A DNA stretch of 53,844 nucleotides from an uncultured Bacteroidales bacterium (GTDB lineage: Bacteria > Bacteroidota > Bacteroidia > Bacteroidales > Paludibacteraceae). How positions within the stretch are numbered: position 1 is the first letter of the stretch; every line of letters begins with the position of its first letter. The translations under genes and the position numbers were made by a program. The notes under the pieces were generated by a model. The model made no database searches. It saw only the letters and a list, made by a program, of their open reading frames with translations, and was not told the origin of the DNA. Shown here piece after piece: positions 22,861-43,234 of this stretch. Location of the stretch: positions 1-53,844 of the forward strand of contig CACXPH010000011.1 of the NCBI GenBank assembly GCA_902769535.1, in the 5' to 3' direction.

Positions 22861-22903
22861 GAAATAATCGTTCCCCTTGAGGGATAAGAAATTTGAAATT
22901 ACC
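22856..22903. repeat. Tract of gaaatttgaaat phrases around a degenerate G/C palindrome
   Basis: AAATTTGAAAT phrases flank TTCCCCTTGAGGG (22871-22883), a degenerate relative of the G/C element found in UvrD, TrxB, FtsK and AroA. The tract supplies the stop codon of the DUF4143 gene. Confidence 0.5.
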
Positions 22904-29835: not shown

Positions 29836-32123
29836 GTATTGGGTGCTTTTTCCAGTTTGGCGTGGGTAAGGAGAAGTGTCTTGAGGCCTTGGGTATCGAA
29901 ACGGATCTCTATCTTGTCATTCTCGGTCACCTCATCGCGATAGACACGTACGACCGTACCGAGCCCGAAGACACGATGGGAGACACGAGAACCTTCCGTC
30001 CAGACGGAAGAGAGAGGAGCCCCTCCCCGACCCTCCCCTGAAGGGGCGGGAGTAGTAAAACTTGGGATTCTGTGAGAACTAGGCGTCCTAGGAATACTAG
30101 GCGTCCTAGGGATACTAGTCTCTCTGTTTGCCGGTCGGTCGAGGGAGAAGAACTGGCGGTCGATATCGTTCAGGAAGCGACTCGGGGAGGCAAAGGTGAC
30201 CGAACCGTTACGGAAGCGCTGGCGGGCAAAGGAGAGGTAACACTGCTCCATCGCACGGGTAATCGCCACATATAACAGACGGCGTTCTTCCTCGATCTCC
30301 TGCGGCTTGATAGCGAACTGGGACGGGAAGAGGTTCTCTTCCATACCGGCGATGAAGACCACGGGGAACTCCAGACCCTTCGCGGCATGTACAGTCATGA
30401 GCGTGACGCGTTCGGTGGTGTCGGTCAGGTTCTCATCCTGATCGGTCTGCAGACTGACCTCCGAGAGGAAGTCGGTGATTGGCGTGAAGTCAATGCCTTC
30501 GTTCGCACGCTGCTCCACGAACTCATGGATCGCGTTGAGCAACTCCTGCACGTTCTGCGCACGGTCGATACCTTCGGTTGAGCGGTCTAAGGCCAGCGCC
30601 GTCATCACGCCGGAGGTACGAAGTACCATCTCCGTGAAAGCGAAAGCGTCCATCGCTTCGCTCTGCTCACTCAGGCCGTCCATATAGGCGGCAAAAGCCT
30701 GCAGTTTCTTGCAGGTAGCGGCAGAGACATCGAGCGCAGTAGCTTCGGGTTGCCGCATGACATCCAGATAACAACGATGATGCTCGATAGCGTTGGTGGA
30801 CACTTTCTTCATCGTCGTCTCACCGATGCCGCGACCGGGAAAACCGACGATACGAAGGAGCGCTTCGTTATCGCGGGGATTGACCGCTAAGCGAAGGTAT
30901 CCGAGCGCATCCTTGATCTCCTTGCGCTGGTAGAACGAGGTGCCGCCGTAGATGCGGTACGGGATGTTGAGTTTGCGCAACTCACCTTCGATAACACGGG
31001 ATTGCGCGTTGGTGCGATAGAGAACAGCGAAGTCATTATAACTATAATGACTATTTGAGATTTGAGATTTCTTCCGATCTGCTTGCGCCGTATGGAGATT
31101 TGAGATTTTCGTGGCAATTCCAGCCGCTTCAGCTCGGTCATCCATATAGGGTTTGAGCGACAGCGGTTGACCGGTTTCTTTCTCCGAATAGACGGTCTTC
31201 TCTATCTGGTGCACATTCTTATGAATGAGCGAGTTGGCGGCATTGACGATGGTCTGCGTGGAGCGGTAGTTACGCTCGAGCTTGAACAGCTTGGCATCGG
31301 GGTACTGCTGCCGGAAATTGAGAATATTCCGGATATCCGCGCCGCGGAAAGAATAGATAGACTGCGCATCGTCGCCTACGACGCAGATGTTATTCTGCGG
31401 TTCGGCGAGCATCTTAACGAGCAGGAACTGGATGTAGTTCGTGTCCTGATACTCGTCCACTAAGATATATTGGAACTGCGTCTGGATGCGCTCGCGCACC
31501 TCGGGGAAATGACGCATGAGCGCCAGGGTATTAATGAGCAGGTCGTCAAAATCCATCGCGTTCGCTGCACGCAGTCGCACCTGGTACTGCTCATAGACGG
31601 TCGCCAACTCATACATACGCGCCTCGCGGTCTTCGCGGAGCAGTTGGGTATTCTGACCATACGCCGCGGGACTGATACCGTTGTTCTTGAGCATCGATAT
31701 ACGGCTCTGCACGGCGCCGGGTTTGTAGATCTTCTCATCCAGTCCGTGCTCCTTGCAGATGGCCTTGAGGACAGATTTGCTGTCGGTGGTATCGTAGATG
31801 GTGAAGTCCCGCGTGAAGCCGAGTTGGTCTGCGTTGGGACGCAGCAGTTTGGTGCACACGTGATGGAAGGTACCCATTGCGAGATAACGCGCCTCGTCAC
31901 CCACCAATTTGGTGATACGCTCTTTCATCTCACGGGCGGCCTTGTTGGTAAAGGTCAGCGCCATGATACGACTGGCCGGCACACCTTGCTGCAACAGGTA
32001 CGCGATACGATAGGTCAGCACGCGGGTCTTACCCGAACCTGCTCCGGCGACGATGAGCGACGCGCCTTCCGTACACGTCACCGCTTCGCGCTGTGTGTTA
32101 TTTAGTTGGTCAAGAAAATTCAC
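29832..32123 (-). CDS. uvrD: UvrD/PcrA-type DNA helicase
   Basis: A superfamily 1A 3'-5' helicase for repair and replication-fork work. Starting at GTG 32123 (MNFLDQLNNTQREAV as initiated), 1 nt after the trxB stop, gives 763 residues, the family size. Motifs are GAGSGKT (27-33), LTFTNKAAREM, VDEYQDTN, VGDDAQSIYSFRGAD, LERNYRS, VTLMTVHAAKGLEFPVVFI and LLYVAITRA. The C-terminal Tudor-like segment (GSRVSHRVFGLGTVV) is kept. Three repeat insertions lie in linkers: about 345-375 (ISNLHTAQ...SQISN), an 18-nt tandem (SIPRTP twice) and a G/C element (TPAPSGEGRGGAP). A longer frame from 32171 overlaps trxB and is unlikely. Confidence 0.9.
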   Translation of the reverse strand: MNFLDQLNNTQREAVTCTEGASLIVAGAGSGKTRVLTYRIAYLLQQGVPASRIMALTFTNKAAREMKERITKLVGDEARYLAMGTFHHVCTKLLRPNADQLGFTRDFTIYDTTDSKSVLKAICKEHGLDEKIYKPGAVQSRISMLKNNGISPAAYGQNTQLLREDREARMYELATVYEQYQVRLRAANAMDFDDLLINTLALMRHFPEVRERIQTQFQYILVDEYQDTNYIQFLLVKMLAEPQNNICVVGDDAQSIYSFRGADIRNILNFRQQYPDAKLFKLERNYRSTQTIVNAANSLIHKNVHQIEKTVYSEKETGQPLSLKPYMDDRAEAAGIATKISNLHTAQADRKKSQISNSHYSYNDFAVLYRTNAQSRVIEGELRKLNIPYRIYGGTSFYQRKEIKDALGYLRLAVNPRDNEALLRIVGFPGRGIGETTMKKVSTNAIEHHRCYLDVMRQPEATALDVSAATCKKLQAFAAYMDGLSEQSEAMDAFAFTEMVLRTSGVMTALALDRSTEGIDRAQNVQELLNAIHEFVEQRANEGIDFTPITDFLSEVSLQTDQDENLTDTTERVTLMTVHAAKGLEFPVVFIAGMEENLFPSQFAIKPQEIEEERRLLYVAITRAMEQCYLSFARQRFRNGSVTFASPSRFLNDIDRQFFSLDRPANRETSIPRTPSIPRTPSSHRIPSFTTPAPSGEGRGGAPLSSVWTEGSRVSHRVFGLGTVVRVYRDEVTENDKIEIRFDTQGLKTLLLTHAKLEKAPNT
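30016..30052 (-). repeat. In-frame G/C palindromic element, copy in uvrD
   Basis: Coding strand: CTCCCGCCCCTTCAGGGGAG followed by GGTCGGGGAGGGGCTCC, read as PAPSGEGRGGAP. The palindromic core is CCCCTTCAGGGG. It lies in the linker before the C-terminal Tudor-like domain. Confidence 0.7.
30078..30118. repeat. 18-nt tandem repeat in uvrD
   Basis: ACTAGGCGTCCTAGGAAT and ACTAGGCGTCCTAGGGAT are adjacent, followed by ACTAG. Being six codons long, each unit adds SIPRTP without shifting the frame. Confidence 0.8.
31031..31109. repeat. Palindrome and gagattt phrases in uvrD
   Basis: AGTCATTATA and TATAATGACT form a perfect 10-bp inverted repeat (31031-31052), followed by TTTGAGATTTGAGATTT and, 25 nt on, GGAGATTTGAGATTTT. 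All are read in frame as a roughly 25-residue insertion just before YNDFAVLYRTNAQSR. Confidence 0.7.
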
Positions 32124-32124
32124 C

Positions 32125-33123
32125 TTAGAGACTCTTGATGTATTTGTCTGCCTCGATGGCTGCTTTGGCACCGGAACCAGCGGCTACTACCGCTTGACGA
32201 TAATGCGGGTCAGCACAGTCTCCGGCGGCGAAGATGCCGGGGATAACGGTGAGCGGTGAGCGGTTATCGGTTATCGGAGCGTAGCACTGTGTGCCGTTAT
32301 CTTTGACAATAATATATCCCTCCGCGTCGCGGGCAACGTAGTCCTTGAACAGTTCGGTATTGGGATGATGACCGATGGCGAGGAAGAAACCGTCGATGGC
32401 GATGTGCTTGATGGCTTCGTCGGGTTCGCCTTTGCGGTAGATGAGGTCAGCGCCTTGTACCTTACCTTCGCCGGTGAGACAGAGGGTATTATGCTCAAAG
32501 AGCACCTCGATCTTGGGGTTATTGAGCACGCGCTGCTGCATGATCTCAGAAGCACGCAAGTACGGTTTACGCACGATCATATAGACTTTCTCGCAGAGTC
32601 CTGCCAGGTAGTTCGCTTCCTCGCACGCCGTGTCACCACCACCTACGACTGCCACGGTCTTCTTGCGATAGAAGAAACCGTCACAGGTAGCGCAGGCACT
32701 CACGCCGCGACCGCGATAGGTGCGCTCAGACTCCAGACCCAGGTACTTGGCGGAAGCACCGGTAGCGATGATGACCGCGTCGGCTTCGTAGAGGTCTGTG
32801 TCTTCGGCCCAGACCTTATGGGGAGGCCTACCCTCGGTCCCTCCCTGAAGGGAGGGAAGTGAGAATTCTACCTTTGTTACTATTCCGGAGACGAAAGTCG
32901 TACCGAAACGCTCGGCTTGACGACGCATGTCGTCCATCATTGTGAAGGGCTCTACACCATCGGGATAACCGGGGAAATTCTCGACTTCGGTGGTAGTGGT
33001 CAGTTGTCCGCCGAGTTGGGGACCTTCAATCAGTACAGGCGCTAAGTTAGCACGCGAAGCGTAGATGGCTGCGGTATAGCCGGCAGGACCGGAACCTATA
33101 ATCAAGCATTTAACTCTATTCAT
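32125..33123 (-). CDS. trxB: Thioredoxin reductase
   Basis: An FAD/NADPH flavoenzyme that reduces thioredoxin. Motifs are IIGSGPAGYTAAIYASRA (FAD), the redox pair in SACATCDGFFY (Cys about 142/145), VVGGGDTACEEA (NADPH) and IFAAGDCADPHYRQA. 332 residues against about 310-315 in relatives; the excess is two in-frame repeat insertions, SLPSLQGGTEGRPP (about 88-101) and PITDNRSPLT before VIPGIFAAGD. Both are in surface loops, so activity is probably kept. It overlaps the lolA-like gene by 4 nt and precedes uvrD by 1 nt. Confidence 0.92.
   Translation of the reverse strand: MNRVKCLIIGSGPAGYTAAIYASRANLAPVLIEGPQLGGQLTTTTEVENFPGYPDGVEPFTMMDDMRRQAERFGTTFVSGIVTKVEFSLPSLQGGTEGRPPHKVWAEDTDLYEADAVIIATGASAKYLGLESERTYRGRGVSACATCDGFFYRKKTVAVVGGGDTACEEANYLAGLCEKVYMIVRKPYLRASEIMQQRVLNNPKIEVLFEHNTLCLTGEGKVQGADLIYRKGEPDEAIKHIAIDGFFLAIGHHPNTELFKDYVARDAEGYIIVKDNGTQCYAPITDNRSPLTVIPGIFAAGDCADPHYRQAVVAAGSGAKAAIEADKYIKSL
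32241..32277. repeat. Short-phrase tract (ggtgagc x2, ggttatc x2) in trxB
   Basis: GGTGAGCGGTGAGCGGTTAT continues CGGTTATCGG and is read as PITDNRSPLT. A close copy lies in the neighbouring lolA-like gene at 33315-33361. Confidence 0.75.
32822..32859 (-). repeat. In-frame G/C palindromic element, copy in trxB
   Basis: Core TCCCTCCCTGAAGGGAGGGA (32838-32857) is a 9-bp stem with a 2-nt centre. The flanking arm on the coding strand is CCGAGGGTAGGCCTCC. Peptide SLPSLQGGTEGRPP. Confidence 0.75.
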
Positions 33124-33689
33124 TGTCTTAAATCGTTTACGTAAGTATCTTTATCAGGCGTGATTTTATATTCTTGTTTGGTGGTCACAAATTTCGGTTC
33201 TTTGAACTTGAGGACCGTGGATTTTTTGCCCTCTTTGAGTTCCACGGAAAGGGGTATGAGGTCGGCAGTACGGATCTTGAGCACAAAACGGTTGATGCCG
33301 ATACTCTGATCCTTGGGGGTAAGGGTGATAAGGGTGAGCGGTGAGGGGTTACCGGTTACGGTTCGCTCCGTGATGTTACAGACAGGCACGAGGGCTTTGG
33401 CGTAGAGGAGCGGATTGGACTCAAGCAGTTCCTCTTCGGTCGGGTTGGTGAGCGTCAGTTCATCCGTCTCTGGGGAGTACATATAGAGCGTCTTGCCGTC
33501 GTACGCCGCCTCGATATTAAACATCGACAAACGGAACTGCCGACCGCTCATGACGATCGTGCCCGGGTAGTTCATCGGTGCGTTCACTTCTTCCGACACC
33601 GTGACGGTGAAGTCCGATTGGAGGGTCTTGGTCTCAAGGTTCGTGAGGAACGAACTCAGGATTGTTAATATTGTTAGTAGCATTTTCAT
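33120..33689 (-). CDS. LolA-like outer membrane lipoprotein carrier protein
   Basis: 189 residues with a short signal peptide (MKMLLTILTILSSFLTN) and the LolA beta pattern: TLQSDFTVTVSEE, GTIVMSGRQFRLS, AAYDGKTLYMYSPETDELTL. It would shuttle lipoproteins across the periplasm. The place between ftsK and trxB is conserved in Bacteroidales. A repeat tract encodes VTGNPSPLTLITL in the middle of the sheet. It overlaps both neighbours by 4 nt. Confidence 0.8.
   Translation of the reverse strand: MKMLLTILTILSSFLTNLETKTLQSDFTVTVSEEVNAPMNYPGTIVMSGRQFRLSMFNIEAAYDGKTLYMYSPETDELTLTNPTEEELLESNPLLYAKALVPVCNITERTVTGNPSPLTLITLTPKDQSIGINRFVLKIRTADLIPLSVELKEGKKSTVLKFKEPKFVTTKQEYKITPDKDTYVNDLRQ
33315..33361. 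repeat. Short-phrase tract (ggtgagc/ggttacc) in the lolA-like gene
   Basis: GGGTGATAAGGGTGAGCGGT continues GAGGGGTTACCGGTTACGG, almost the same phrases and order as the trxB tract about 1 kb away, in frame (NPSPLTLITL). Confidence 0.7.
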
Positions 33690-36292
33690 TTGACGCCTAA
33701 TTCTTCGAGCAGTTTATCGAGTTGGTCGAGGTCTTGGATGAGGACGTCACGGCCTTTGGGTCCTTTGTTCGGGCCAACGACTCCGGCTGCCTCGAGTTGG
33801 TCGGAGAGTTTACCGGCGCGGTTATAACCGATCTCGAAGGCGCGCTGCAGACGGGAGGTCGAGCCTTCTTGCTTCGTTACTACGTAACGGGCGACATCTG
33901 CAAACATCGGGTCGAGGCGTTTCAAATCTACGCTGCCGGGCGCCAAGGCTTCGCCTTCGCCGCCTTCACCCACATACTCGGGCAGTTGGTACGGTTCGGT
34001 ATAACGCTGCTGTTTAGCGATGTGCTTGACGATCTCGTCCACCTCGGGCGTGTCCACGAAAGCACACTGCACACGGGTGATGGAGGCGTTGCCGGCATAG
34101 AGGCTGTCACCGCGACCGATGAGTTGTTCGGCACCCTTGGCATCGAGGACGGTTCGGGAGTCGATGACGGACTGCGTACGCAGGGCTATACGCGTCGGGA
34201 TATTCGCCTTGATGACACCCGTGACGATATTGACAGACGGACGCTGGGTAGCGAGGATCATGTGCATACCGACCGCACGGGCTTTCTGCGTGATACGCGC
34301 GATAGGCGTCTCGACCTGCTTGCCCGCCTGCATGATGAAGTCACCGTACTCGTCGATGATGATGACGATATAGGGCAGGTACTGGTGGTGCAAGCTGTCC
34401 GCCACGAGTTTGTTGGGGTTGAGACGACGACGAACGAACTTATCGTTATAGTCCTCGAGGTTACGCACACCGGCGTCCATGAGGAGCTTGTAGCGGTTCT
34501 CCATCTCGATGACGAGGGAGTTGAGCGTGTTGATGACGCGGTCGCAGTCGGTGATGACGATCTGCTCGGGGTCCGTGTCAGGCTGCGCCGCGAGGAAATG
34601 CTTGAGCAGCGGTTTGTAGGGCGCGAACTCGACCATCTTCGGATCGACCATGACGAGTTTGAGTTCGGCCGGGTGCTTCTTGTAGAGCAGCGAGGTGATG
34701 ATGGCGTTGATGGCGACGGACTTACCGGTACCGGTGGCACCTGCTACGAGGAGGTGCGGGGTCTTGGCGAGGTCGAACATAAAGACCTCGTTGGTGATGG
34801 TGCGACCGTAGGCGATAGGCAGACGCATCTTCGATTCTTCCTGGAAGCGCTTGGAAGCGATGACGGAGTGCATGGAAACGACCTGCGGGTTCTCGTTCGG
34901 CACCTCGATACCGATGGTGCCCTTGCCCGGGATCGGCGCGATGATACGGATTCCGGTTGCGGAGAGAGACATCATGATGTCGTTCTCGAGCGACTGGATC
35001 TTCGCTACGCGAATACCGGCTTTCGGGACTATCTCATAGAGCGTGACGGTCGGTCCGACAGTCGCCTTGATGCTTTCTATCTCGATGTCGTAGTTACGCA
35101 AGGTAGTGACGATACGGGCACCGTTAGCACGTTGCTCCTCTTCGTTGATGACCGGCGCCGCTTCGTTGTCATAGACCTTGAGCAGGTTGAGCGACGGGAA
35201 CTTATAGAACTCGAGATCTTTGCGAGGATCATACGGTCCGAGTTTCTCGAGGAGTTTGTCCGGATCTTTGGTGTAGAGTTCGTCTTCGACGATGTCTTCA
35301 ATCTTCAGAGAAGCCCCTTCCGACTCCCCCTGAAGGGGGAGAGCATCTTCAATGGGCAGTGGCGCATCGCCAAGCGGTTCATCGTTATCATCGACCAGCG
35401 GAACATCGATTGTAATATCCACTTGCCCCTCTTGGCGAAGGTCGCTCTCCCCATTATTTTGGGGAGATGCTCCGGAATCTATCGTGAAGGTGACTTCGTC
35501 TTCCGATTGGTTATTGGTTATTGGTGATTGGTGATTGTCATCGACCGGAATATCCAGAACCACCTCGTCACCGTCTTCCCTTCCCTGCAGGGAGGGGTCA
35601 GAGGTAGGCTTCCTCTTCCGTTTGAAGAGTCCTGCGAACCACGCGCCGAAGGCCTTGCAGCGGTCAATGAAACGCGGGTCGGTAACGATGAGGAAGATGA
35701 CCATCAGCGCCACGAGAATAAGGATGGCGCCGGTGGTGTTCACGTAGCTCACGAGCCAACGCGAAGCGGCTTCGCCGAACGCTCCACCCCAGCGGTAAAC
35801 GCCGAGTTGATGTACCGTATCATGAATGAAACCCAGAACGACCGAACCCCAGAGTACCAAGAAGGATGTGCAGCAGAACCATTTGAGTGCCGGGATATCT
35901 TTGAGTGCATGCATGAGCCGCAAGGCGTACGCACCGAGCAGTAAGACAAGGAGAAGCGACACATAACCGAAACTGCCGTCGATGAGGAACTGCGCGAGCA
36001 CCGCACCCGGCAGACCGATGATGTTACGCACGGCTGCACGATTGGCGATACGCTCGGCACGGGATAACGAAAGGATATCTTGGTCATAGGTGCCGGTAAA
36101 GAGGAAACTGACGTACGACAGCAAGGCGATGACGGCAAACAGAAGAAGCAGGATGCCGATGACCATACGCGTCTCACGCGCCTGGAAGAAATGCCGGATC
36201 GACTCCCACGTGTTTGTTTTCTCCACTCGAATAGCGCGTTCGTTCGGACGCTCTTCGGCTATATTTCTCGATTTTGATACTGTTCTGGGCAT
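33686..36292 (-). CDS. ftsK: DNA translocase FtsK/SpoIIIE
   Basis: A septal DNA pump that clears chromosomes and supports dimer resolution. 868 residues: four to five N-terminal membrane segments (about 35-200), a variable linker, the alpha/beta motor with Walker A GATGTGKSVAI (about 518), VDPKMVEFAPYKPLLKH, IIDEYGDFIM and ILATQRPSVNIVTG, and the C-terminal gamma winged helix (GSTSRLQRAFEIGYNRAGKL split over the DNA-reading helix). The linker (about 225-340) holds three G/C elements and one tandem tract, all in frame. The upstream -7 box TACTTTTG at 36319-36312 lacks a good -33 box. Confidence 0.93.
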   Translation of the reverse strand: MPRTVSKSRNIAEERPNERAIRVEKTNTWESIRHFFQARETRMVIGILLLLFAVIALLSYVSFLFTGTYDQDILSLSRAERIANRAAVRNIIGLPGAVLAQFLIDGSFGYVSLLLVLLLGAYALRLMHALKDIPALKWFCCTSFLVLWGSVVLGFIHDTVHQLGVYRWGGAFGEAASRWLVSYVNTTGAILILVALMVIFLIVTDPRFIDRCKAFGAWFAGLFKRKRKPTSDPSLQGREDGDEVVLDIPVDDNHQSPITNNQSEDEVTFTIDSGASPQNNGESDLRQEGQVDITIDVPLVDDNDEPLGDAPLPIEDALPLQGESEGASLKIEDIVEDELYTKDPDKLLEKLGPYDPRKDLEFYKFPSLNLLKVYDNEAAPVINEEEQRANGARIVTTLRNYDIEIESIKATVGPTVTLYEIVPKAGIRVAKIQSLENDIMMSLSATGIRIIAPIPGKGTIGIEVPNENPQVVSMHSVIASKRFQEESKMRLPIAYGRTITNEVFMFDLAKTPHLLVAGATGTGKSVAINAIITSLLYKKHPAELKLVMVDPKMVEFAPYKPLLKHFLAAQPDTDPEQIVITDCDRVINTLNSLVIEMENRYKLLMDAGVRNLEDYNDKFVRRRLNPNKLVADSLHHQYLPYIVIIIDEYGDFIMQAGKQVETPIARITQKARAVGMHMILATQRPSVNIVTGVIKANIPTRIALRTQSVIDSRTVLDAKGAEQLIGRGDSLYAGNASITRVQCAFVDTPEVDEIVKHIAKQQRYTEPYQLPEYVGEGGEGEALAPGSVDLKRLDPMFADVARYVVTKQEGSTSRLQRAFEIGYNRAGKLSDQLEAAGVVGPNKGPKGRDVLIQDLDQLDKLLEELGVK
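35310..35344 (-). repeat. In-frame G/C palindromic element, copy 1 in ftsK
   Basis: Coding strand GCTCTCCCCCTTCAGGGGGA then GTCGGAAGGGGCTTC, read as ALPLQGESEGAS. Core CTCCCCCTTCAGGGGGAG. Confidence 0.7.
35424..35473 (-). repeat. In-frame G/C palindromic element, copy 2 in ftsK (divergent)
   Basis: Coding strand CTCCCCAAAATAATGGGGAG, then GCGACC and GAGGGGC on the far side. Read as GASPQNNGESDLRQEG. The core loop differs (AAAATAAT) but the layout is that of the other copies. Confidence 0.55.
35505..35537. repeat. Short-phrase tract (ggttatt x2, ggtgatt x2) in ftsK
   Basis: GATTGGTTATTGGTTATTGG continues TGATTGGTGATTG, in frame as DNHQSPITNNQSE in the linker. Related tracts: 16325, 38707, 42604 and 45195. 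Confidence 0.75.
35574..35613 (+). repeat. In-frame G/C palindromic element, copy 3 in ftsK (inverted)
   Basis: Here the plus strand carries the consensus order, CTTCCCTTCCCTGCAGGGAG then GGTAGGCTTCC, so it is inverted relative to the trxB and aroA copies. It is still open in the gene's frame (KPTSDPSLQGREDGD). Confidence 0.7.
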
Positions 36293-36328
36293 ATTATCTC
36301 AAATTAGCGCACAAAAGTACAAAAAAAA

Positions 36329-36360
36329 GGTGAAAGTGGAAAGTTGAAAGTGGAAAGTTT
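36329..36360. repeat. Short-phrase tract (gaaagtg/gaaagtt)
   Basis: GTGAAAGTGGAAAGTTGAAA then GTGGAAAGTT lie between the divergent ftsK and rseC promoter regions. I see no gene in the gap of about 160 nt apart from these promoter parts. Confidence 0.65.
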
Positions 36361-36412
36361 TGCATTTTTTGGCGAAAAAGGTGGATTTTTTATTAAAAAA
36401 GAACGCGCGCAC

Positions 36413-36443
36413 TTGCGCATATAAAAAAGATTTTGTATCTTTG
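36413..36443 (+). promoter_or_regulatory. Promoter of the rseC-rnf operon
   Basis: TTG (36413-36415), 20 nt, TATCTTTG (36436-36443). The start codon follows within about 15 nt, so the leader is very short. Confidence 0.75.
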
Positions 36444-36455
36444 CAGTCGCTTTTA

Positions 36456-36875
36456 ATGTGCATGGACGAATTGATACGACATACGGGTGTGGTACTGAGC
36501 GTTAACGGAGAGTTAGCGCATGTGGAAATTGTGCAGACAAGTGCCTGTTCGGCATGTAAGGCGCGCAGTATGTGTATGTCGGCGGAGAGTCAGCAGAAAG
36601 AGATGGATGTCGTCATGCTCGAGCCTATGCAAGTAGGCGATCAAGTGGAGGTAGAAGTACGCGAGCGTTTGGCGTGGAAGGCCGTGTTGTTAGCGTATAT
36701 CCTGCCTTTTATTGTGATGATGGGATTGATCGCCGTGCTGGATTTCGTGACGGATTGGTCGGAGGCTGTAGTGGGCACCTTGTCGCTCTGCGGCATCGCG
36801 CTGTATTACATCGGACTCAGCGTATTCAAACACCGGCTGCAAAAACAATTTGTTTTTACGGCGAGGAAGGTGTAG
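36456..36875 (+). CDS. rseC: RseC/MucC-like protein (Rnf-associated)
   Basis: About 139 residues from MCMDELIRHTGVV (the ATG at 36462 is equally possible; a longer frame would start upstream of the promoter). N-terminal soluble domain with Cys cluster TSACSACKARSMC, then two membrane segments (AVLLAYILPFIVMMGLIAVL and VVGTLSLCGIALYYIGLSVF). RseC relatives take part in keeping SoxR reduced together with Rnf/Rsx. In Bacteroidales it stands just before rnfB, as here. The function in this phylum is inferred. Confidence 0.8.
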   Translation: MCMDELIRHTGVVLSVNGELAHVEIVQTSACSACKARSMCMSAESQQKEMDVVMLEPMQVGDQVEVEVRERLAWKAVLLAYILPFIVMMGLIAVLDFVTDWSEAVVGTLSLCGIALYYIGLSVFKHRLQKQFVFTARKV

Positions 36876-36890
36876 GGTGTATGGTGTATA
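36869..36890. repeat. 7-nt tract (gtgtagg/gtgtatg) at the rseC stop
   Basis: GGTGTAGGGTGTATGGTGTA includes the TAG stop of rseC and repeats the phrase found at 24533-24565. Confidence 0.65.
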
Positions 36891-36911
36891 TAGTTTTAAA
36901 AAATAAATAAT

Positions 36912-37319
36912 ATGAATCTGATTTTTATTTCTATGGGAGTATTAGGTGTGATTGCCTTTCTGGCAGCCTGCCTGCTGTATGTAGTCAGCCTGTACTTCAA
37001 AGTGGAAGAAGATCCGCGCATTGACCTTGTGACGGCAGTGTTGCCGGGCGCTAACTGCGGTGGTTGCGGATTTGCCGGTTGCCGTAACTTTGCCGAGGCA
37101 TGTGTGAAAGCAGGCGGTATCGAAGGTCTGGCCTGCCCTGTAGGTGGCGAACCGACCATGGACCAAGTGAAACTCATCCTTATTCCGGCTGAGGAGTCAT
37201 CAGCAGTGAGTGATCAGCCTTCAGATGGAAAGAAGGGCTTCGATCCGGTTATCGCTGAGAAGATCAAAGCGCTGGCTACGCCGAGAGCGGTATTCCCGCT
37301 GGCGCTGGGTATACGTTAA
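36912..37319 (+). CDS. rnfB: RnfB, truncated: membrane anchor and single Fe-S domain only
   Basis: 135 residues against about 280-300 in Bacteroidales RnfB. It keeps the N-terminal membrane helix (about 3-27) and the Fe-S domain with Cys 49, 52, 57 and 75 (ANCGGCGFAGC, LACPVG). It then departs at VKLIL into AEESSAVSDQPSDGKKGFDP and ends ATPRAVFPLALGIR. All C-terminal 4Fe-4S ferredoxin domains, which pass electrons from ferredoxin, are missing, and only 36 nt separate it from rnfC, so they are not in another frame. Either the Rnf complex gets electrons otherwise, or the missing part is encoded elsewhere, or the complex is impaired. Confidence 0.8.
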   Translation: MNLIFISMGVLGVIAFLAACLLYVVSLYFKVEEDPRIDLVTAVLPGANCGGCGFAGCRNFAEACVKAGGIEGLACPVGGEPTMDQVKLILIPAEESSAVSDQPSDGKKGFDPVIAEKIKALATPRAVFPLALGIR

Positions 37320-37350
37320 ACGGTTAAATCGTTAAGCTGTTAAAACGTTA
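37314..37350. repeat. Short-phrase tract (cgttaaa/ggttaaat/cgttaag)
   Basis: CGTTAAACGGTTAAATCGTT then AAGCTGTTAAAACGTTA fills the rnfB-rnfC gap and contains the rnfB stop codon. Confidence 0.65.
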
Positions 37351-37355
37351 GAATT

Positions 37356-38708
37356 ATGAGAACATTTAACATAGGCGGAGTTCATCCGCAAGACAACAAA
37401 CAATTCTCCGCGCACCAGCCCATCACTGAGTGTCCGCTGCCGAAGCAAGCGATTATTCCGCTTGTGCAACACATCGGTGCACCGACGCAGGCTGTAGTGG
37501 AAGTCGGAGCGAAAGTAAAAGTAGGCGAACTGCTGGCCAAGGCCGGTGGGTTCGTGAGTGCGAACATCTGTTCGCCGGTGAGCGGAACGGTGACCAAGAT
37601 CGGTGACTGGACCGATGCCTGGGGTGCACCCGGACAAGCCATTTATATCGACGTTGAAGGCGATGTATGGATGCCGGAAATCGACCGCACGCCGGATCTG
37701 GTGCGTCAGTGCACGTTGGAGCCGAAAGCTATCATCGACAAGATTGCCGCAGCCGGTATCGTAGGTCTCGGTGGCGCTTGTTTCCCGACGCATGTGAAGT
37801 TGCTGCCGCCTCCAGGCAAGAAAGCGGAAGTGCTGATCGTGAACGGTGTGGAATGCGAGCCGTACCTGACCTGCGACCATCAGTTGATGCTCGAGCACGG
37901 CGAGGAGATCATGATCGGTATCCAGATACTGAAGAAAGCGCTGGGTGTTGACCGCGCGATCATCGGTATCGAGAACAACAAGAAAGATGCGATTGAGCAT
38001 ATGACCAAGTTGGCGAACTCCAGCCTGGGTGTCGAGGTGCTGCCGCTCAAGTTGAAGTATCCGCAAGGCGGTGAGAAACAGCTGATCGACGCTTGTATCG
38101 GTCGTCAGGTACCGAGCGGTGCGCTTCCGATCGAGGTAGGTGCTGTCGTTGATAACGTAGCGACCATATACGCAGTATATGAGGCGGTACAGAAGAACAA
38201 ACCGCTCATCAGCCGCGTGATGACCGTGACGGGAAAGAAAGTGTCGAAGCCGGGTAACTACCTCGTTCGTTTCGGTACGCCGATTGAGGACGTTATTGCC
38301 CTCGCAGGTGGTGTTCCGGTGGATACGGGTAAGATCATCGGTGGCGGTCCGATGATGGGTCGCGCGATGGATCATATAGAAGGTATGCCGGCATACAAAC
38401 GTCTGTCGGGTCTGCTGTTCCTGCCTCAGGCGGAGAGCATCCGTCCGGAGCAAGACAACTGCATCCGCTGCGGTAAGTGCGTGCAGGCTTGTCCGATGGG
38501 TCTGGAGCCGTATCTGCTCCAACGCATGAGTGAACTGGAGATGTGGGAAGAATGCGAGAAGCACGACGTGATGGATTGTATCGACTGCGGTTGCTGCGTC
38601 TATACCTGTCCGGCTCACCGTCGTCTGCTCGACGGTATCCGTCCGGCGAAAGCCAAAGTGGGAGCTATTTTGCGGGAAAGAGCAGCCGCTGCTGCAGCCG
38701 CAAAATAA
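37356..38708 (+). CDS. rnfC: RnfC, NADH/Fe-S subunit of the Rnf complex
   Basis: 450 residues. Peripheral subunit that binds FMN and NADH and two 4Fe-4S clusters. Motifs are GLGGACFPTHVKL (nucleotide/FMN region), VNGVECEPYLTCD, GGGPMMG, and two cluster motifs CIRCGKCVQACP (about 369-380) and CIDCGCCVYTCP (about 408-419). The N-terminal biotinyl-like part (VEVGAKVKVGELLAKAGGFV) is present. Full length. An Ala-rich C-terminus (AAAAAAAK) ends before a repeat tract. Confidence 0.95.
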   Translation: MRTFNIGGVHPQDNKQFSAHQPITECPLPKQAIIPLVQHIGAPTQAVVEVGAKVKVGELLAKAGGFVSANICSPVSGTVTKIGDWTDAWGAPGQAIYIDVEGDVWMPEIDRTPDLVRQCTLEPKAIIDKIAAAGIVGLGGACFPTHVKLLPPPGKKAEVLIVNGVECEPYLTCDHQLMLEHGEEIMIGIQILKKALGVDRAIIGIENNKKDAIEHMTKLANSSLGVEVLPLKLKYPQGGEKQLIDACIGRQVPSGALPIEVGAVVDNVATIYAVYEAVQKNKPLISRVMTVTGKKVSKPGNYLVRFGTPIEDVIALAGGVPVDTGKIIGGGPMMGRAMDHIEGMPAYKRLSGLLFLPQAESIRPEQDNCIRCGKCVQACPMGLEPYLLQRMSELEMWEECEKHDVMDCIDCGCCVYTCPAHRRLLDGIRPAKAKVGAILRERAAAAAAAK

Positions 38709-38740
38709 TTGGTAATTTGTAATTGGTAATTTGTAATTTG
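38707..38740. repeat. Short-phrase tract (attggtaatttgta x2) between rnfC and rnfD
   Basis: AATTGGTAATTTGTAATTGG repeats as TAATTTGTAATTTG and includes the rnfC stop. It is read through by the operon transcript. Confidence 0.75.
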
Positions 38741-38746
38741 AAAGAT

Positions 38747-39733
38747 ATGAAACAATTTATTACAACTCCGGCTCCTCACGCGCACAGCGGTGATTCAGTT
38801 CGGAAAAATATGCTGCTGGTCATTCTTGCCTTGGTGCCTGCGTATGCGGTATCCGTGTGGCAGTTTGGCTTTGGAGCACTTATCACGGCCGCTATTTCGG
38901 TTGCAGCCTGCGTGCTGACCGAGTGGCTCATCAGCCGTTTCTTGCTCAAAGAGCAAAGACAAACCATCGGCGACCTGTCGGCCGTGCTGACCGGTCTGCT
39001 GCTGGCCTTCAACCTGCCGTCGAGTCTCGACTGGTGGATCGTGTTGATTGGTGCAGTAGTGGCCATCGGCGTAGGTAAGATGACGTTCGGTGGTCTGGGT
39101 CAGAACCCGTTCAACCCGGCACTCGTAGGACGTGTATTCCTGCTCATCTCCTTCCCGGCACAGATGACGACCTGGCCGGTTGCCAAGGGTTTTGCAACGA
39201 GTTATCTGGATGCAGAGACAGGTGCTACTCCGCTCTATTATCTGAAGCACATCATGAAATCCGGCGACACGAGTTTCGTGGACCAACTGCCGAGTCTAAT
39301 GGATTCGTTCGTAGGTGCGATGGGTGGTTCACTCGGCGAGGTCAGCGCGGCTGCGCTCATCCTCGGAGGACTGATCCTCATCTGCTGCCGCGTGATCACA
39401 TGGCATATACCGGTAGCTATCATCGGCACGGTGGCGCTCTTCTCATGGATCGCTACGCCGGCCGGCATGGATCCTTCGACTTTCGTAGGTTACCAACTGC
39501 TCAGCGGTGGTCTGATGCTCGGTGCGTTCTTCATGGCCACCGATTATGTGACGAGCCCGATGAGTGCGTGGGGTAAGATCATCTTCGGTATCGGCATCGG
39601 TTTCATTATGATGGTCATCCGTACCTGGGGTGCTTATCCGGAAGGTATGTCCTTCGCCATCCTTATCATGAACGCTTGCGTTCCATTGTTGAACAAGATT
39701 CGTCCGCAACGTTTCGGAGAAAAAAAGAAATAA
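38747..39733 (+). CDS. rnfD: RnfD, membrane subunit
   Basis: 328 residues from the ATG at 38747 (MKQFITTPAPHAHSGDSV); the longer frame from TTG 38723 begins in the repeat tract. About nine membrane segments. The covalent FMN site is the Thr in AETGATPLYYLK (written DAETGATPL, about residue 160, SGAT-like), and GGLGQNPFNPALVGR is conserved. It forms the ion-translocating core with RnfA, E and G. Confidence 0.93.
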   Translation: MKQFITTPAPHAHSGDSVRKNMLLVILALVPAYAVSVWQFGFGALITAAISVAACVLTEWLISRFLLKEQRQTIGDLSAVLTGLLLAFNLPSSLDWWIVLIGAVVAIGVGKMTFGGLGQNPFNPALVGRVFLLISFPAQMTTWPVAKGFATSYLDAETGATPLYYLKHIMKSGDTSFVDQLPSLMDSFVGAMGGSLGEVSAAALILGGLILICCRVITWHIPVAIIGTVALFSWIATPAGMDPSTFVGYQLLSGGLMLGAFFMATDYVTSPMSAWGKIIFGIGIGFIMMVIRTWGAYPEGMSFAILIMNACVPLLNKIRPQRFGEKKK

Positions 39734-39743
39734 GGAGGGAGTT

Positions 39744-40322
39744 ATGGAAAAGTTACAAAGTTCATTTAAGAATATGGTGCTGAGCCTGGTTATCATCTCG
39801 ATGGTAGCAGCCGGTGCCTTAGCAGGCGTCTATCTGCTGACGCTGAAGAATATCGAGGCGCAGAAGATCGCCAAACAAGAGGCAGCCAAGCAGGCTGTTC
39901 TTGCCGGTCACGAAGACGGTACGGCCATTGAAGTGGCAGTAGACGGTTTCGGTGGTCCGTTCCGCGTGATGGTTGGTTTTGATGCAGAAGGAACCATCCT
40001 CGGATACGAGATATTGGAGCACCAGGAGACTCCGGGTTTGGGTTCGCACATGGAACACTGGTTCAAGAACGCCGACAAGCCGGGTCAGAACATCATCGGT
40101 CGTAAGGCCACGGGTGCTTTTGCGGTCAGCAAAGATGGCGGTGACGTAGATGCTATCACGGCAGCTACCATCTCCAGCCGCGCGTTCCTGCAGGCGATTA
40201 ACAAAGCGTATGCGGAATTCAAAGGCACGGAAGCCACAACCGGCGCCAGTCAACTAAAGAATGAAGGAGTGAAAGATGAAGGAGTGAACGAACAAACAGA
40301 AACGGAGGTAAGTCATGAGTAA
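39744..40322 (+). CDS. rnfG: RnfG, FMN-binding subunit
   Basis: 192 residues: one N-terminal membrane helix (about 11-33), then a periplasmic FMN-binding domain with ETPGLGSHME and the covalent FMN Thr in VDAITAATISSRAF (about residue 140; usual motif SGATxTS). The C-terminal tail KNEGVKDEGVNEQTETE is encoded by a repeat tract. It overlaps rnfE by 8 nt. Confidence 0.92.
   Translation: MEKLQSSFKNMVLSLVIISMVAAGALAGVYLLTLKNIEAQKIAKQEAAKQAVLAGHEDGTAIEVAVDGFGGPFRVMVGFDAEGTILGYEILEHQETPGLGSHMEHWFKNADKPGQNIIGRKATGAFAVSKDGGDVDAITAATISSRAFLQAINKAYAEFKGTEATTGASQLKNEGVKDEGVNEQTETEVSHE
40257..40289. repeat. Short-phrase tract (gaatgaaggagtg x2) in the rnfG tail
   Basis: AAGAATGAAGGAGTGAAAGA then TGAAGGAGTGAAC is read as KNEGVKDEGVN, extending the C-terminus beyond the FMN domain. 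Confidence 0.65.
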
Positions 40323-40902
40323 CGGATTGAAAACATTAACCAACGGTATTCTCAAAGAGAATCCGACCTTTGTGCTCGTGCTCGGTATGTGTCCGACCTT
40401 GGCCACCACTACCAGCGCTATCAACGGTATGAGTATGGGTTTAGCGACCATGTTTGTGCTCATCTGCTCGAACGTAGTTATCTCGTTGCTCAAGAACCTG
40501 ATTCCTGACAAGGTACGTATCCCGGCGTTCATCGTGGTCATCGCTACCTTCGTAACACTCGTTCAGTTGCTCATGCAGGCATACCTGCCGGCTATCTATG
40601 ACGTGCTGGGTCTGTTCATTCCGCTGATCGTAGTGAACTGTATCGTGCTTGGTCGTGCCGAGGCTTTTGCTGCGAAGAACAGCGTAGGTCTCAGTGCCCT
40701 CGACGGTATCGGTATGGGTCTTGGTTTCACGCTGGCGCTGACGCTGCTCGGTGCGGTTCGTGAGTTACTCGGAACGGGTTCGTGCTTCGGCCTGACCGTC
40801 TTCCCGGATAACTACGGCGCACTCGTGTTCGTACTCGCTCCGGGTGCGTTCATCGCCCTTGCCTATTTGATGGTCATTATTAACAAAATCCAGAACAAAT
40901 AA
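40315..40902 (+). CDS. rnfE: RnfE, membrane subunit
   Basis: 195 residues with six membrane helices, homologous to RnfA in inverted topology. Conserved NPTFVLVLGMCPTLA (first Fe-binding Cys of the membrane 2Fe centre) and IVVNCIVLGRAEAFA (second Cys) are present. It starts 8 nt before the rnfG stop and is followed by rnfA after 2 nt. Confidence 0.93.
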   Translation: MSNGLKTLTNGILKENPTFVLVLGMCPTLATTTSAINGMSMGLATMFVLICSNVVISLLKNLIPDKVRIPAFIVVIATFVTLVQLLMQAYLPAIYDVLGLFIPLIVVNCIVLGRAEAFAAKNSVGLSALDGIGMGLGFTLALTLLGAVRELLGTGSCFGLTVFPDNYGALVFVLAPGAFIALAYLMVIINKIQNK

Positions 40903-40904
40903 TT

Positions 40905-41498
40905 ATGATTTACTTTTTAATTTTCATCTCTGCGATATTTGTTAATAATATCGTATTGAGCCAGTTCTTGGGTATCTGCCCGTTCCTGGGAGTAAGTAAG
41001 AAAATCGACACCGCGATGGGTATGAGCGCCGCTGTTGTATTCGTGCTCACGCTCGCGACGGTTGTTACATACCTGTTACAAATGCTGTTGGTCGCTTGGG
41101 GCTTGGAGTTCCTGCAGACGATTTTGTTCATCCTCATCATCGCTGCCCTCGTGCAGATGATCGAGATCATCCTGAAGAAGATCAGTCCGTCGCTTTATCA
41201 AGCCTTAGGAGTGTTCCTGCCGCTGATCACGACCAACTGCTGTATCCTCGGTGTGGCTATTCTGGTAGCTAACGGCACAGAGAAACTGCCGATGGGTGCA
41301 GAGCACGGCATGCTGACCGGTACGCTCTTCGCTTTTGCAACCGCGCTGGGCTTCGGTCTGGCACTTATCCTGTTCGCAGGTATCCGCGAGCAACTCGCGC
41401 TGGCAAAAGTGCCGGAAGCGATGAAAGGCACGCCTATCGCGCTGCTGACCGCTGGTCTGCTGGCGATGGCCTTCATGGGCTTTAGCGGAGTGGTATGA
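40905..41498 (+). CDS. rnfA: RnfA, membrane subunit
   Basis: 197 residues, six membrane helices. Signature segments are NNIVLSQFLGICPFLGVSKK and PLITTNCCILGVA, holding the Cys ligands of the intramembrane iron site. Last gene of the operon. A plus-strand terminator lies about 100 nt downstream, inside the convergent AroA-GT2 gene. Confidence 0.93.
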   Translation: MIYFLIFISAIFVNNIVLSQFLGICPFLGVSKKIDTAMGMSAAVVFVLTLATVVTYLLQMLLVAWGLEFLQTILFILIIAALVQMIEIILKKISPSLYQALGVFLPLITTNCCILGVAILVANGTEKLPMGAEHGMLTGTLFAFATALGFGLALILFAGIREQLALAKVPEAMKGTPIALLTAGLLAMAFMGFSGVV

Positions 41499-41521
41499 TA
41501 AAGGTGATAGGTTATTGGTTA

Positions 41522-43234
41522 TTACCAAGCCTTTCTAAAAAGACCGCCGATAAGGCAGATAAAGAGATAATACGGATAGATTATCTCGAGAAGCAGAGCC
41601 ACAAGCCACGAGGTTTGTGGTTCTCTTTTTTTGATGAGCGAGAACTCAATAGGGAACTTAATCAGAAGAACGAGGGGGCAGAGCCATTGAAGGATATTTG
41701 CGTAAAGGATCAGCTGACCATAACGGATAATATCCCGGTCGGTATAATGCGGTGCTTTGCCTGCCCAGCGCATGCGCTGACGGAAGAACGCGCGCCATGA
41801 TGTAAGGGGACGCACAACGGCTGTATAGTCCGGTTCGTCTATCACACCGACCGTATATCCGTGACGCTTAACGGCTTCGAGCAGGAATATGTCATCGCCG
41901 GAAGGTATCTCCGGATGGATGTCCGGTTCGCACGCCAGCCATACCTCGCGTTTGACGATCAGGTTCGCACCGGAACACATGATCGCATGGCCGCGCTTCG
42001 CTGTGCGCATCGTCAGTTCCTGGATGGCTGCGTACTCCGCCATCTGAAGTTTCTCCAAGAGCGAAGGTTTATCGTTCTCACTCTCCATGCGCAAGGGCAG
42101 GATAATCAAGTCATGTGTAAAGTGTAATGTGTCATGTGTAGCCTTCGGCAAAACGACGTCATCGTCGTGCAGCCAGACATACTCGGAATTGGCGGCATGA
42201 ATGAGTTTGGACAGCGCGTGTTTCTTGCCTAAGTTATCATCATTGACTCCTTTAATCGGTGTGATGTGAGCGATGGGAGTTTGGAGATTGAATTTTGAAA
42301 ATTGCGCTACAAACGATGGATAACTCTTGGCGATGCAGGCTTGGTCTTCGATGGAGACGGGATAGTCGGCACACATCAATGCCATCGCTATACGATGGTC
42401 ATTACGCACTTCGTGGAGACGGACGGCCTCGAGACGATCGGACTCTTTGTATTTCAAGCGTTCGGTGCCGGAGGCATGCAAATCCATCTTCAAGATTTCA
42501 CAAGTCAATGCAACTGCCGGATATAAATCAGGACAGTTGGTGAAATCTATTGAAATGGATTTATTGGTGATTCTCTGCCACAAGGGCGCGATTAACTTCG
42601 TTTTTGGTGATTGGTGATTGGTGATTTTGGCACCTTCGGGTACAAACTCCGTTTGAACACCGAAATGTTCAGCATAGATGTCCGCGACGATGCGGTCGCC
42701 TTGGATACTGTCGGCTGTGAGACCTTCTAGTAATAACTCACCACCGTGGATGGCGATATATTCATACCAAAAAGCCGCAGCAGACCAGTCTGCTTCGATT
42801 GGTGAGCCTACCCCATCCCTCCCAAGAGGGAAGGAGTTTTTCTTGTACATCTCCATCACCTTGCGGGTCATCTCTACGTAAGGCGAGTCATCGGACACTT
42901 CTATTCCGTGCATGAGCAAAGCGGAGTTGGTTTGCGAGGTGGGTTTGCCCTTGCGTTCCATGAGTCGCGGATCGCCGGTTAGTGTGATGGGTTCACCCGG
43001 ATAGCATTGATGCAGATGGACTTCCAAGAACCGCAAGGCCGTTCCGCAGTTCTTGAGATAAAGCGTGAGGGGTTCTCCTTTCTTATATTCGCGTAGGCGC
43101 GCGAGGGCATCATGGAGAACGATCACATCGTCAGGCATATTAACAGCGACGGGCATAAGCTCGTCGCCATTAATTGCTTGCAACAACAGGAGTCTGTTGG
43201 CAATCGATTTTGATATCGGAAGTTTAATTGACAT
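41522..43234 (-). CDS. Chimera: loop-deleted EPSP synthase (AroA) fused to an N-truncated GT2 glycosyltransferase
   Basis: 570 residues. The first about 310 match AroA: LPISKSIANR, NCGTALRFLE, SQTNSALLM, EADWSAAAFW, CPDLYPAVALT, KESDR, NDHRIAMAL and KSYPSF keep the known catalytic residues. Segments are missing after GDPRLMER (about 35-40 residues) and between KESDR and NDHR (about 30). From about 315 on it is a GT2 enzyme (LGKKHALSKLIHAANSEYVW, LHDDDV, SGDDIFLLEAVKRHG, FFRQRMRWAGK and C-terminal membrane helices) that lacks the first 50 residues with the usual nucleotide-binding strand. The joint (KFNLQTPIAHI) is a repeat tract. Three other repeat insertions are present. Whether both halves work is unknown. 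Confidence 0.8.
   Translation of the reverse strand: MSIKLPISKSIANRLLLLQAINGDELMPVAVNMPDDVIVLHDALARLREYKKGEPLTLYLKNCGTALRFLEVHLHQCYPGEPITLTGDPRLMERKGKPTSQTNSALLMHGIEVSDDSPYVEMTRKVMEMYKKNSFPLGRDGVGSPIEADWSAAAFWYEYIAIHGGELLLEGLTADSIQGDRIVADIYAEHFGVQTEFVPEGAKITNHQSPKTKLIAPLWQRITNKSISIDFTNCPDLYPAVALTCEILKMDLHASGTERLKYKESDRLEAVRLHEVRNDHRIAMALMCADYPVSIEDQACIAKSYPSFVAQFSKFNLQTPIAHITPIKGVNDDNLGKKHALSKLIHAANSEYVWLHDDDVVLPKATHDTLHFTHDLIILPLRMESENDKPSLLEKLQMAEYAAIQELTMRTAKRGHAIMCSGANLIVKREVWLACEPDIHPEIPSGDDIFLLEAVKRHGYTVGVIDEPDYTAVVRPLTSWRAFFRQRMRWAGKAPHYTDRDIIRYGQLILYANILQWLCPLVLLIKFPIEFSLIKKREPQTSWLVALLLEIIYPYYLFICLIGGLFRKAW
41595..41632 (+). terminator. Terminator of the rnf operon
   Basis: AGAGCCACAA (41595-41604) pairs with TTGTGGTTCT (41615-41624), nine Watson-Crick pairs and one G-U, followed by C and seven T. 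It lies antisense within the 3' coding part of the AroA-GT2 gene. Confidence 0.8.
42111..42142. repeat. Short-phrase tract (catgtgta/aagtgtaa/tgtgtcat) in the AroA-GT2 gene
   Basis: GTCATGTGTAAAGTGTAATG then TGTCATGTGTAG, in frame as THDTLHFTHD in the glycosyltransferase half. Confidence 0.6.
42263..42305. repeat. Short-phrase tract at the AroA/GT2 joint
   Basis: GATGGGAGTTTGGAGATTGA continues ATTTTGAAAATTG, read as QFSKFNLQTPIA. The end of recognisable AroA sequence and the start of GT2 sequence both fall here. Confidence 0.65.
42604..42629. repeat. 7-nt tandem (ttggtga x3) in the AroA part
   Basis: TTGGTGATTGGTGATTGGTG plus ATTTTG is read as KITNHQSPKTK. Confidence 0.8.
42801..42836 (-). 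repeat. In-frame G/C palindromic element, copy in the AroA part
   Basis: Coding strand CTCCTTCCCTCTTGGGAGGG then ATGGGGTAGGCTCACC, read as NSFPLGRDGVGSP. Same flank (GGTAGGC) as the trxB and third ftsK copies. Confidence 0.7.

Follow-up and report, generated by a model that had tools for sequence, protein, structure and literature searches.

A repeat family with the layout of a class II DNA triplex motif, placed in frame in genes of a Paludibacteraceae genome

The triplex motif of Escherichia coli known as BoxC, PIT or TM_ECO folds in vitro, as described in the main text of Holder et al. 2015 (PMC4666352), where Hoyne and Maher 2000/2002 are cited for class II motifs. Palindromes within genes, including repetitive extragenic palindromes (REPs), occur in Rickettsia and in other REP-rich genomes according to the account in PMC3733652, with UvrD/REP helicase genes among their hosts. 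Here we analyse a 53,844-nt stretch of DNA (hereafter the window), which is contig C11 (CACXPH010000011.1) of the draft genome G000 of an uncultured Paludibacteraceae bacterium (1.89 Mb, 39 contigs, 85% complete) and in which copies of a short palindromic repeat lie inside uvrD, trxB, ftsK and an aroA-like gene. We describe this repeat family, its uneven copy number, its in-frame placement in the source genome and a covariation of three strands that follows the code of a DNA triplex. The best explanation overall, to which we assign a probability of roughly 0.75, is that the repeats would form a family of class II triplex motifs with covarying strands, which persists inside genes and may be copied in a way that depends on its fold.

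All sequences are drafts, and the named relatives are mostly metagenome-assembled. In the labels used below, G denotes a genome, L a sequence stretch or locus, and C a contig of the source genome.

Layout of the family and covariation of its strands

The family consensus, CTCCCYTCCYTTYAGGGAGGGGNYGGGGGTAGGCT, reads along one strand as a pyrimidine arm of 8 nt, a 4-nt loop, a purine arm of 8 nt, a 3-nt loop and a purine-rich candidate third strand of 8 nt. In the source genome the arms are CCCTTCCC/GGGAGGGG, and 98.3% of the cells of the hairpin are paired. The consensus gives eight triads, with loops of 4 and 3 nt and one G.A mismatch, and single copies can have more mismatches. The strands follow the class II order, with the pyrimidine arm first, then the purine arm and, on the 3' side, a purine third strand, and the consensus lies within the ITxF limits (stem of 6-15 nt, with one mismatch allowed above 7 nt, and loops of 1-6 nt). 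GGTAGGC, described in the first-pass annotation as a flank common to three copies, is present in those of trxB, the third ftsK site and the aroA-like gene, and corresponds to the 3' tail, that is, to the candidate third strand. Judged from its sequence, the element is very probably a class II purine-motif intrastrand triplex motif that occurs as a dispersed family.

A decamer search of the window gave 10 matches, against a shuffled mean of 3.5 and a shuffled maximum of 8. A covariance model trained on 7 copies gave 38 rows in the source genome (genome rows being counted at E<=1), one of which is the same palindrome on the other strand, leaving at least 37 places, with 150 of the 158 candidates scored. 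Copy counts from this model, for the source genome, its congeners and the nearest relative found (G077, FtsK 94%), are lower bounds where there were more than 150 candidates.

The arms and the tail of the element change together. Mutual information was computed with no third strand assumed over 93 copies (95 rows minus two partial reverse-strand self-hits; 90 distinct rows, three species), and mirror-column arm-tail pairs as well as arm-arm pairs came out on top: 22:35 with 0.70 bits, then 4:33, 4:24, 24:33 and 21:36, with 3:28 in ninth place, each of them reached in 0 of 200 permutations. At the mirror position G goes with G, and A goes with A or T; natural pairs of arm and tail changes exist, such as GAGGAGGG/GAGGTAGG. 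This relation is the code of a DNA triplex of the purine-motif type (reverse-Hoogsteen, antiparallel). Among the triads, C.G*G, T.A*A, T.A*T and T.G*G predominate. Changes restricted to the pyrimidine arm leave the tail as it is, indicating that the tail reads the purine strand.

We then counted triads, excluding position 8/17/31, which is the constant G.A mismatch. In the discovery set, made of ungapped 38-mers alone (75 distinct from 95 rows), the tail obeys the code in 34 of the 35 cells where the purine arm leaves the consensus. A hold-out set from G077 and other species (45 distinct from 74 rows, one truncated row dropped) obeys it in 19 of 22 cells, or 5 of 6 without G077. The 74 hold-out rows share three sequences with the discovery set and include loci orthologous to copies of the source genome; with the shared sequences and the eight orthologous loci both removed, 17 of 20 cells obey the code. 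Had the tail kept the consensus base, no cell would obey it in either set. Four arm positions of the discovery set each associate most strongly with their own mirror position. In the hold-out set the two well-populated arm positions also peak at their own mirror, whereas position 22, with two changes, does not, and position 15 has a stray association.

A scan free of any model points the same way. Over the window and the ftsK loci (81 loci), 21 of 75 pyrimidine/purine hairpins have a tail matching at 7 or 8 of 8 positions, and the controls gave 6.8 (shuffled tails), 8 (parallel) and 0 (upstream). Over all 241 loci, many of them fetched via model hits, 100 of 292 hairpins match at the 3-nt loop against 37 after shuffling (maximum 50 in 200 shuffles); other offsets give 0-22 matches, so that the 3-nt second loop is the sole offset that stands out. 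With one vote per distinct arm/tail pair (50 pairs), the mirror order ranks within the top 10 of the 40,320 ways to order the columns. Because changes in the tail track those of the purine arm according to the purine-motif code, we read the tail as the candidate third strand of the hairpin. Three strands changing together suggest that the triple strand itself may matter. Seen in about 110 distinct natural copies, such covariation would argue on evolutionary grounds that the triple strand itself is under selection or is required for spreading; its exact predictions can be tested with oligonucleotides.

If the element were instead a repeat forming G-quadruplexes, the G runs of arm and tail would matter rather than pairing. 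The consensus GGGAGGGGNYGGGGGTAGG is indeed G-rich with several G runs, but recurrent variants (GGAGGAGTCGGAGGTAGG) interrupt these runs and yet keep the triad code, and a quadruplex predicts neither the pyrimidine arm, nor the mirror positions, nor the A-to-T triads; we regard this explanation as extremely improbable.

The covariation also weakens the proposal that the family is a protein-coding palindrome of the Rickettsia palindromic element (RPE) or REP type, in which the hairpin alone matters, the tail is mere flank and a Y1 (RAYT) transposase is the mover. The nearly complete pairing of the hairpin would fit this proposal, as would the GTAG within the tail and the in-frame insertion in repair and other genes, which PMC3733652 describes for intragenic REPs, with UvrD/REP helicase included. 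However, several arm variants lose GTAG (tails GTTAGG and GAGAGG), and a GTAG end was dropped as a REP signature because the tail follows the purine arm. Y1 matches occur in 22 of 61 genomes of the genus, but their presence does not obviously track copy number. Target-site duplication, a mark of MITEs and insertion sequences that the first-pass annotation had suggested looking for, was not seen in the comparison of copies (90 of the 93 testable; best setting 14 observed against 8.3 expected, at 2 bases). An RPE or REP origin is thus unlikely in our view, though clearly less so than a quadruplex.

The Y1 transposase (Y1_Tnp, PF01797) has no match in the source genome, which is 85% complete, and no convincing element lies within about 1.5 kb of 20 fetched Y1 loci of the genus (best E 0.84). 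On the PF01797 searches of the source genome and the 61 genus genomes and on these 20 loci, the RAYT/Y1 hypothesis was rejected. Y1-type transposase-like proteins of about 330-400 residues with a long, similar C-terminal part recur in the genus Y1 loci L159-L170, and the Y1 match of G021 has an internal TAG.

Placement in genes of the source genome

In the window, the copies and their host genes are arranged as follows.

29835..32171, minus strand: uvrD host gene (Pfam UvrD-helicase, UvrD_C at 297-650, tudor at 727-775)
30015..30052, minus strand: putative triplex motif copy in uvrD, tail variant GGGGAGGGGCT, in frame between the UvrD_C and tudor domains, covariance-model E 5e-5
32125..33123, minus strand: trxB host gene (Pfam Pyr_redox_2; solved homologues)
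32822..32859, minus strand: putative triplex motif copy in trxB, in frame (LPSLQGGTEGRP), in a loop within the Pyr_redox_2 domain, covariance-model E 4e-10
33686..36292, minus strand: ftsK host gene (Pfam FtsK_4TM at 39-203, FtsK_alpha at 365-466)
35309..35343, minus strand: putative triplex motif copy in the ftsK linker, peptide LPLQGESEGA, covariance-model E 0.024
35425..35471, minus strand: triplex-like motif of another kind in the ftsK linker, its loops being longer; not a covariance-model match, triplex fit by eye
35576..35613, plus strand: putative triplex motif copy in frame in the ftsK linker, inverted relative to the gene (KPTSDPSLQGRE), covariance-model E 3.5e-12
41522..43234, minus strand: aroA-like open reading frame (ORF) joined in one frame to a glycosyltransferase 2 domain (Pfam EPSP_synthase, partial; Glyco_tranf_2_3)
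42802..42837, minus strand: putative triplex motif copy in the aroA-like gene (SFPLGRDGVGSP), covariance-model E 7e-4

Five of the six copies that the first-pass annotation had assigned to one family belong together (30015, 32822, 35309, 35576 and 42802); the one at 35424 is the other motif, which escapes the covariance model and is also present in ftsK of L072, L075 and L119. A supposed degenerate copy at 22871-22883 is a lone CCCTTGAGGG with no covariance-model match. The general picture of a palindromic repeat in frame in essential genes, in both orientations and mostly in loops, linkers or ends, holds, and the third ftsK copy is indeed inverted relative to its gene with the frame still open.

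Both family copies in ftsK and the related motif lie within the linker between the 4TM and alpha domains, and the trxB insert falls opposite a gap when aligned with a solved TrxB structure. Four orthologues differ at the uvrD site, and five relatives have other sequence, of varying length, at the aroA-like site. In the alignment at 35309..35343, the locus L071 of the nearest relative instead has a peptide resembling that of a 7-bp array; the copy at 35576..35613 is common to the source genome and L071. The comparison of orthologues did not refute the idea of insertion: in those examined, several sites are empty or differently filled, and some sites are common with the nearest relative. The fusion in the aroA-like ORF appears to be conserved, since matches span residues 1-570 in L110 and L085.

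Scanning the whole genome, as had been proposed, extends these findings. All 37 copies lie within some stop-to-stop open frame of at least 174 codons, and 35 are in frame, in 32 ORFs; the other two (C2:132179 and C1:15911) stand between genes. The in-frame calls come from an automatic coding rule for 28 of the 35 and from inspection by hand for 7, because leaders, C-terminal ends and the uvrD linker escaped the rule. A Pfam match exists for 29 of the 32 host ORFs, which include arginyl-tRNA synthetase (ArgRS), RsmH, MnmE (two copies), Mfd (two), Dus, Mrp, UvrD, FtsK (two), TrxB, the AroA-like protein, an HU-like protein, an NtrC-type regulator and an ABC-F protein, among others. About a dozen copies are inside a domain envelope, and the others are in linkers, ends and three apparent signal peptides (signal-peptide calls were made by eye, as were several array calls and the net codon gains given below). 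The consensus is open in four of six frames, and copies read in a frame that it closes have an altered tail, loop or length.

Orientation bears on a further explanation, namely that an RNA element is selected as an mRNA hairpin with a role in stability or regulation. The two arms would pair in RNA, with G-U wobbles. Against this, the copies occur in both orientations relative to the host gene, Rfam has no match in 29800-43300, and the third-strand code is that of the purine motif, which according to the introduction of PMC4666352 cannot form in RNA. We consider an RNA element very improbable.

For genomes other than the source, coding was called by the automatic rule. By this rule the coding copies number 28 of 37 in G000, 21 of 29 in G021 and 5 of 27 in G006 (G000 versus G006, P=1e-5), those of G006 and G021 being taken from 20 stretches per genome at the best-scoring end of the list. 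Overall, G000, G077 and G021 carry the element mainly in genes, and G006 mainly between genes.

Two recurrent settings of the in-gene copies were seen besides. A similar C-terminal segment (LRDGQLY or LHNGQIFI) directly follows the element in several proteins, including some that have LRR or glycosidase domains, so that the same kind of linker is used repeatedly (L010, L011 and L021 in the source genome, L203 and L211 in G021, L242 in G077); this segment is perhaps a secretion signal. Other copies lie within hydrophobic N-terminal leaders such as MRRRISIVILFSLLLGRAGVGYSQ (L019, L037 and L068 in the source genome, L254 and L270 in G077; by eye), as if the repeat had been recruited as a signal-peptide core.

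Distribution, turnover and 7-bp arrays

At least one copy was found in 20 of 41 genomes searched: in 18 of 25 of the genus, and as two weak single matches among the 16 others. Copies per genome range from 0 to 75 among the 25 congeners, with 63 in G077, where 27 of 30 examined copies are spanned by a stop-to-stop frame of at least 200 codons. The best 80 ftsK relatives are records of Paludibacteraceae, Bacteroidales or Bacteroidia with titles mostly from rumen or gut. The source genome and G077 have some sites in common and others not. When 13 copies of G077 were sought in the source genome, the ten alignable counterparts proved to be five short non-repeat loops and five 7-bp arrays (by eye). 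In the five non-repeat comparisons a few loop residues are replaced, with a net gain of 8-12 codons (by eye).

The same class with other arms exists in other Bacteroidota, in the form GGAGAGGG, then NNN, then GGG(T/A)GAGG. The hairpin CCCTCTCC/GGAGAGGG was found in 58 of the 296 Bacteroidota genomes searched, and in some instances a matching tail follows it (tails judged by eye and not counted). From several of these other genomes, 20 places chosen for their fitting tails gave 20 matches in 19 loci, only two of which (L299 and L300) have a long open frame on both sides, so that, as far as this small sample goes, copies outside the genus seem to lie mostly between genes. The arms CTCTCCCC/GGGGAGAG were rejected as a cross-phylum test, as 12 matches in 5 of 296 genomes with one clear tail match were too few. 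A second triplex-type sequence, CTCCCCTTCTGAGAAGGGGTCGGGGGATGTC, occurs in L223 and L224 of G006, where its different tail fits its different arm (by eye).

Tandem arrays of 7-bp (in some cases 9/18-bp) units are also numerous in the window; the units differ, and several arrays are in frame in genes (Tandem Repeats Finder). Those in the host genes described above, and further examples, are:

32247..32277, minus strand: in-frame arrays of 7-bp tandem repeats at site 2 of trxB
35505..35537, minus strand: 7-bp tandem array, in frame in ftsK
42604..42626, minus strand: 7-bp tandem array, in frame in the aroA-like gene
30078-30118, 31053-31070, 36326-36359 and 38706-38740: further arrays of the window, as examples

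At trxB site 2, where the source genome has its 7-bp arrays, the triplex motif is found in L071, L093, L094, L111 and L115; G000 and G077 have the same flanks there with different modules in between. Arrays in the trxB loops of other species are built of other units. Among 53 readable genes, the first trxB loop holds the palindrome in 3, a period-7 array in 9, nothing in 33 and something else in 8; for the second loop, readable in 58 genes, these numbers are 7, 12, 31 and 8. Occupied alleles of site 2 have common flank residues which the empty alleles lack. Since some of the same sites are filled by 7-bp arrays in other species of the genus, repeat modules appear to replace each other in protein loops. 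The arrays resemble the triplex element in lying in frame, in occupying some of the same loops and in a unit that differs between species; they differ in being direct repeats without hairpin or third strand. A literature search aimed at such 7-bp arrays returned nothing on Bacteroidales.

Whether the shared sites are anything special is an even question to us. Possibly a few tolerant loops accept any insertion, and independent repeats accumulate there by selection alone. The host sites are largely loops, linkers, ends and leaders, and empty sites are common among orthologues (in trxB, 33 of 53 genes at the first site and 31 of 58 at the second), as this explanation would have it. On the other hand, 7-bp arrays stand at 5 of the 10 source-genome counterparts of copies present only in G077, against 6.1% of random windows drawn from the same loci (P=1.6e-4), a comparison of two different measures, by eye for the former and a period-7 score for the latter. 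In G006 an array lies directly upstream of 8 of 27 copies and downstream of 1 of 27, against 0.7% of control windows, which include no intergenic controls; yet none was found directly upstream of the 37 copies of G000 or the 29 of G021. The flank residues particular to occupied site-2 alleles likewise speak against mere tolerance. Pure hotspot targeting was not established.

A core of about 30 nt (GAAGTTAATCGCGCCCTTG...GGCAGAGAA) is nested among 7-bp repeats in the aroA-like gene (42573-42612) and in ftsK and uvrD of L071 (around 10777 and 16589). Its 19-nt part GAAGTTAATCGCGCCCTTG, sought with at most one mismatch, occurs in 3 of 25 genomes and is of low copy number in the source genome (2 copies).

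Proposed mechanism and relation to known systems

We propose that, when the element is single-stranded, its arms can pair and the third strand could occupy the major groove, running antiparallel to the purine arm (C.G*G, T.A*A and T.A*T triads). Such a triplex may form in cells, and the folded single strand could be what gets copied or protected, for example at stalled or broken forks. The third strand would stay in register because copies that do not fold would not spread. Gap repair and template switching are candidate routes of copying. That folding matters for spread seems to us somewhat more probable than the opposite, and we hold either route with less confidence than that. Purifying selection would then set where copies persist: in an open frame, and in a loop, linker, end or leader that tolerates extra residues. 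More tentatively, at somewhat below even odds, the family may be a selfish repeat with triplex-dependent spread, which colonises loops in frame, trades places with 7-bp arrays and acts as a continuous source of loop peptides. The case also shows a repeat at the level of DNA reshaping portions of essential proteins, and a repeat of another type was found at some of these sites.

Several points weigh against this explanation. The one-vote test peaks clearly on the mirror at arm positions 2, 4, 5 and 7, and little at 1, 3, 6 and 8; the pairs 1:31, 6:10 and 1:2 have high mutual information that a triplex does not explain; one triad position is a constant mismatch, and three cells of the stricter hold-out set violate the code. 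Since copies are related by descent, the cells are not independent events, and we judge that the covarying changes, in counts that ignore kinship, go back to four or five events which many copies have inherited, plus other arm types. The low coding share in G006 indicates that the in-gene habit is not a general property of the element, and a neutral model at an assumed coding density of 90% already puts about 86% of copies in genes (P=0.085 for 35 of 37). The sites compared with G077 are not clean insertions, loop residues being replaced with no target duplication, and our searches found no machinery for the element. Dimethyl sulfate (DMS) footprinting, as reported by Holder et al. (PMC4666352), did not support the presence of a stable triplex inside E. 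coli cells. The family bears on whether intrastrand DNA triplexes do anything in bacteria, given the folding in vitro and the unsupportive footprinting in cells reported there.

Among known palindromes, the Rickettsia elements suggested as a parallel in the first-pass annotation share a formal likeness with this family: as set out in PMC3733652, they are short palindromes in frame in genes, DNA-repair genes included, and give peptides at tolerant sites. The likeness does not extend to identity, because here a third strand covaries, CGTC stands at neither end of the consensus and the source genome has no Y1 match. This comparison is with the published description, which reports a CGTC end for the Rickettsia elements; the present family has a third strand where they would be bare palindromes. 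The conserved terminal GTAG of REPs is likewise lacking, as the GTAG of the tail changes in arm variants.

As far as sequence can tell, the element is a class II intrastrand triplex motif of the kind known as BoxC/PIT/TM, with another sequence. The main text of PMC4666352 describes for BoxC (= PIT = TM_ECO) the same pyrimidine arm, purine arm and purine third strand, triads of 8-9 nt, a short first loop, a 3-nt second loop, G/C richness, a copy number that is patchy between close relatives and a lack of association with transposases. The arms differ, being CCCTTCCC here and not CCCTCNCCC, and the arms of the source genome do not fit the TM_ECO pattern CCCTCNCCCN3-6GGGNGAGGGN3GGGNGAGGG. No paper on in-frame triplex motifs or on their three-strand covariation was recognised in searches of the open-access literature, and 'Bacteroid', 'intragenic' and 'in-frame' are absent from the main text of PMC4666352. 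New relative to the literature found are the in-frame placement, the covariation and the different repeat types at the same protein loops. The location differs most visibly from that of the E. coli motif, with 35 of 37 copies in frame in ORFs here, whereas the 23 copies of E. coli MG1655 are reported in PMC4666352 to be always intergenic. Unlike TM_ECO, the present family has enough sequence variety for a covariation of three strands to be seen.

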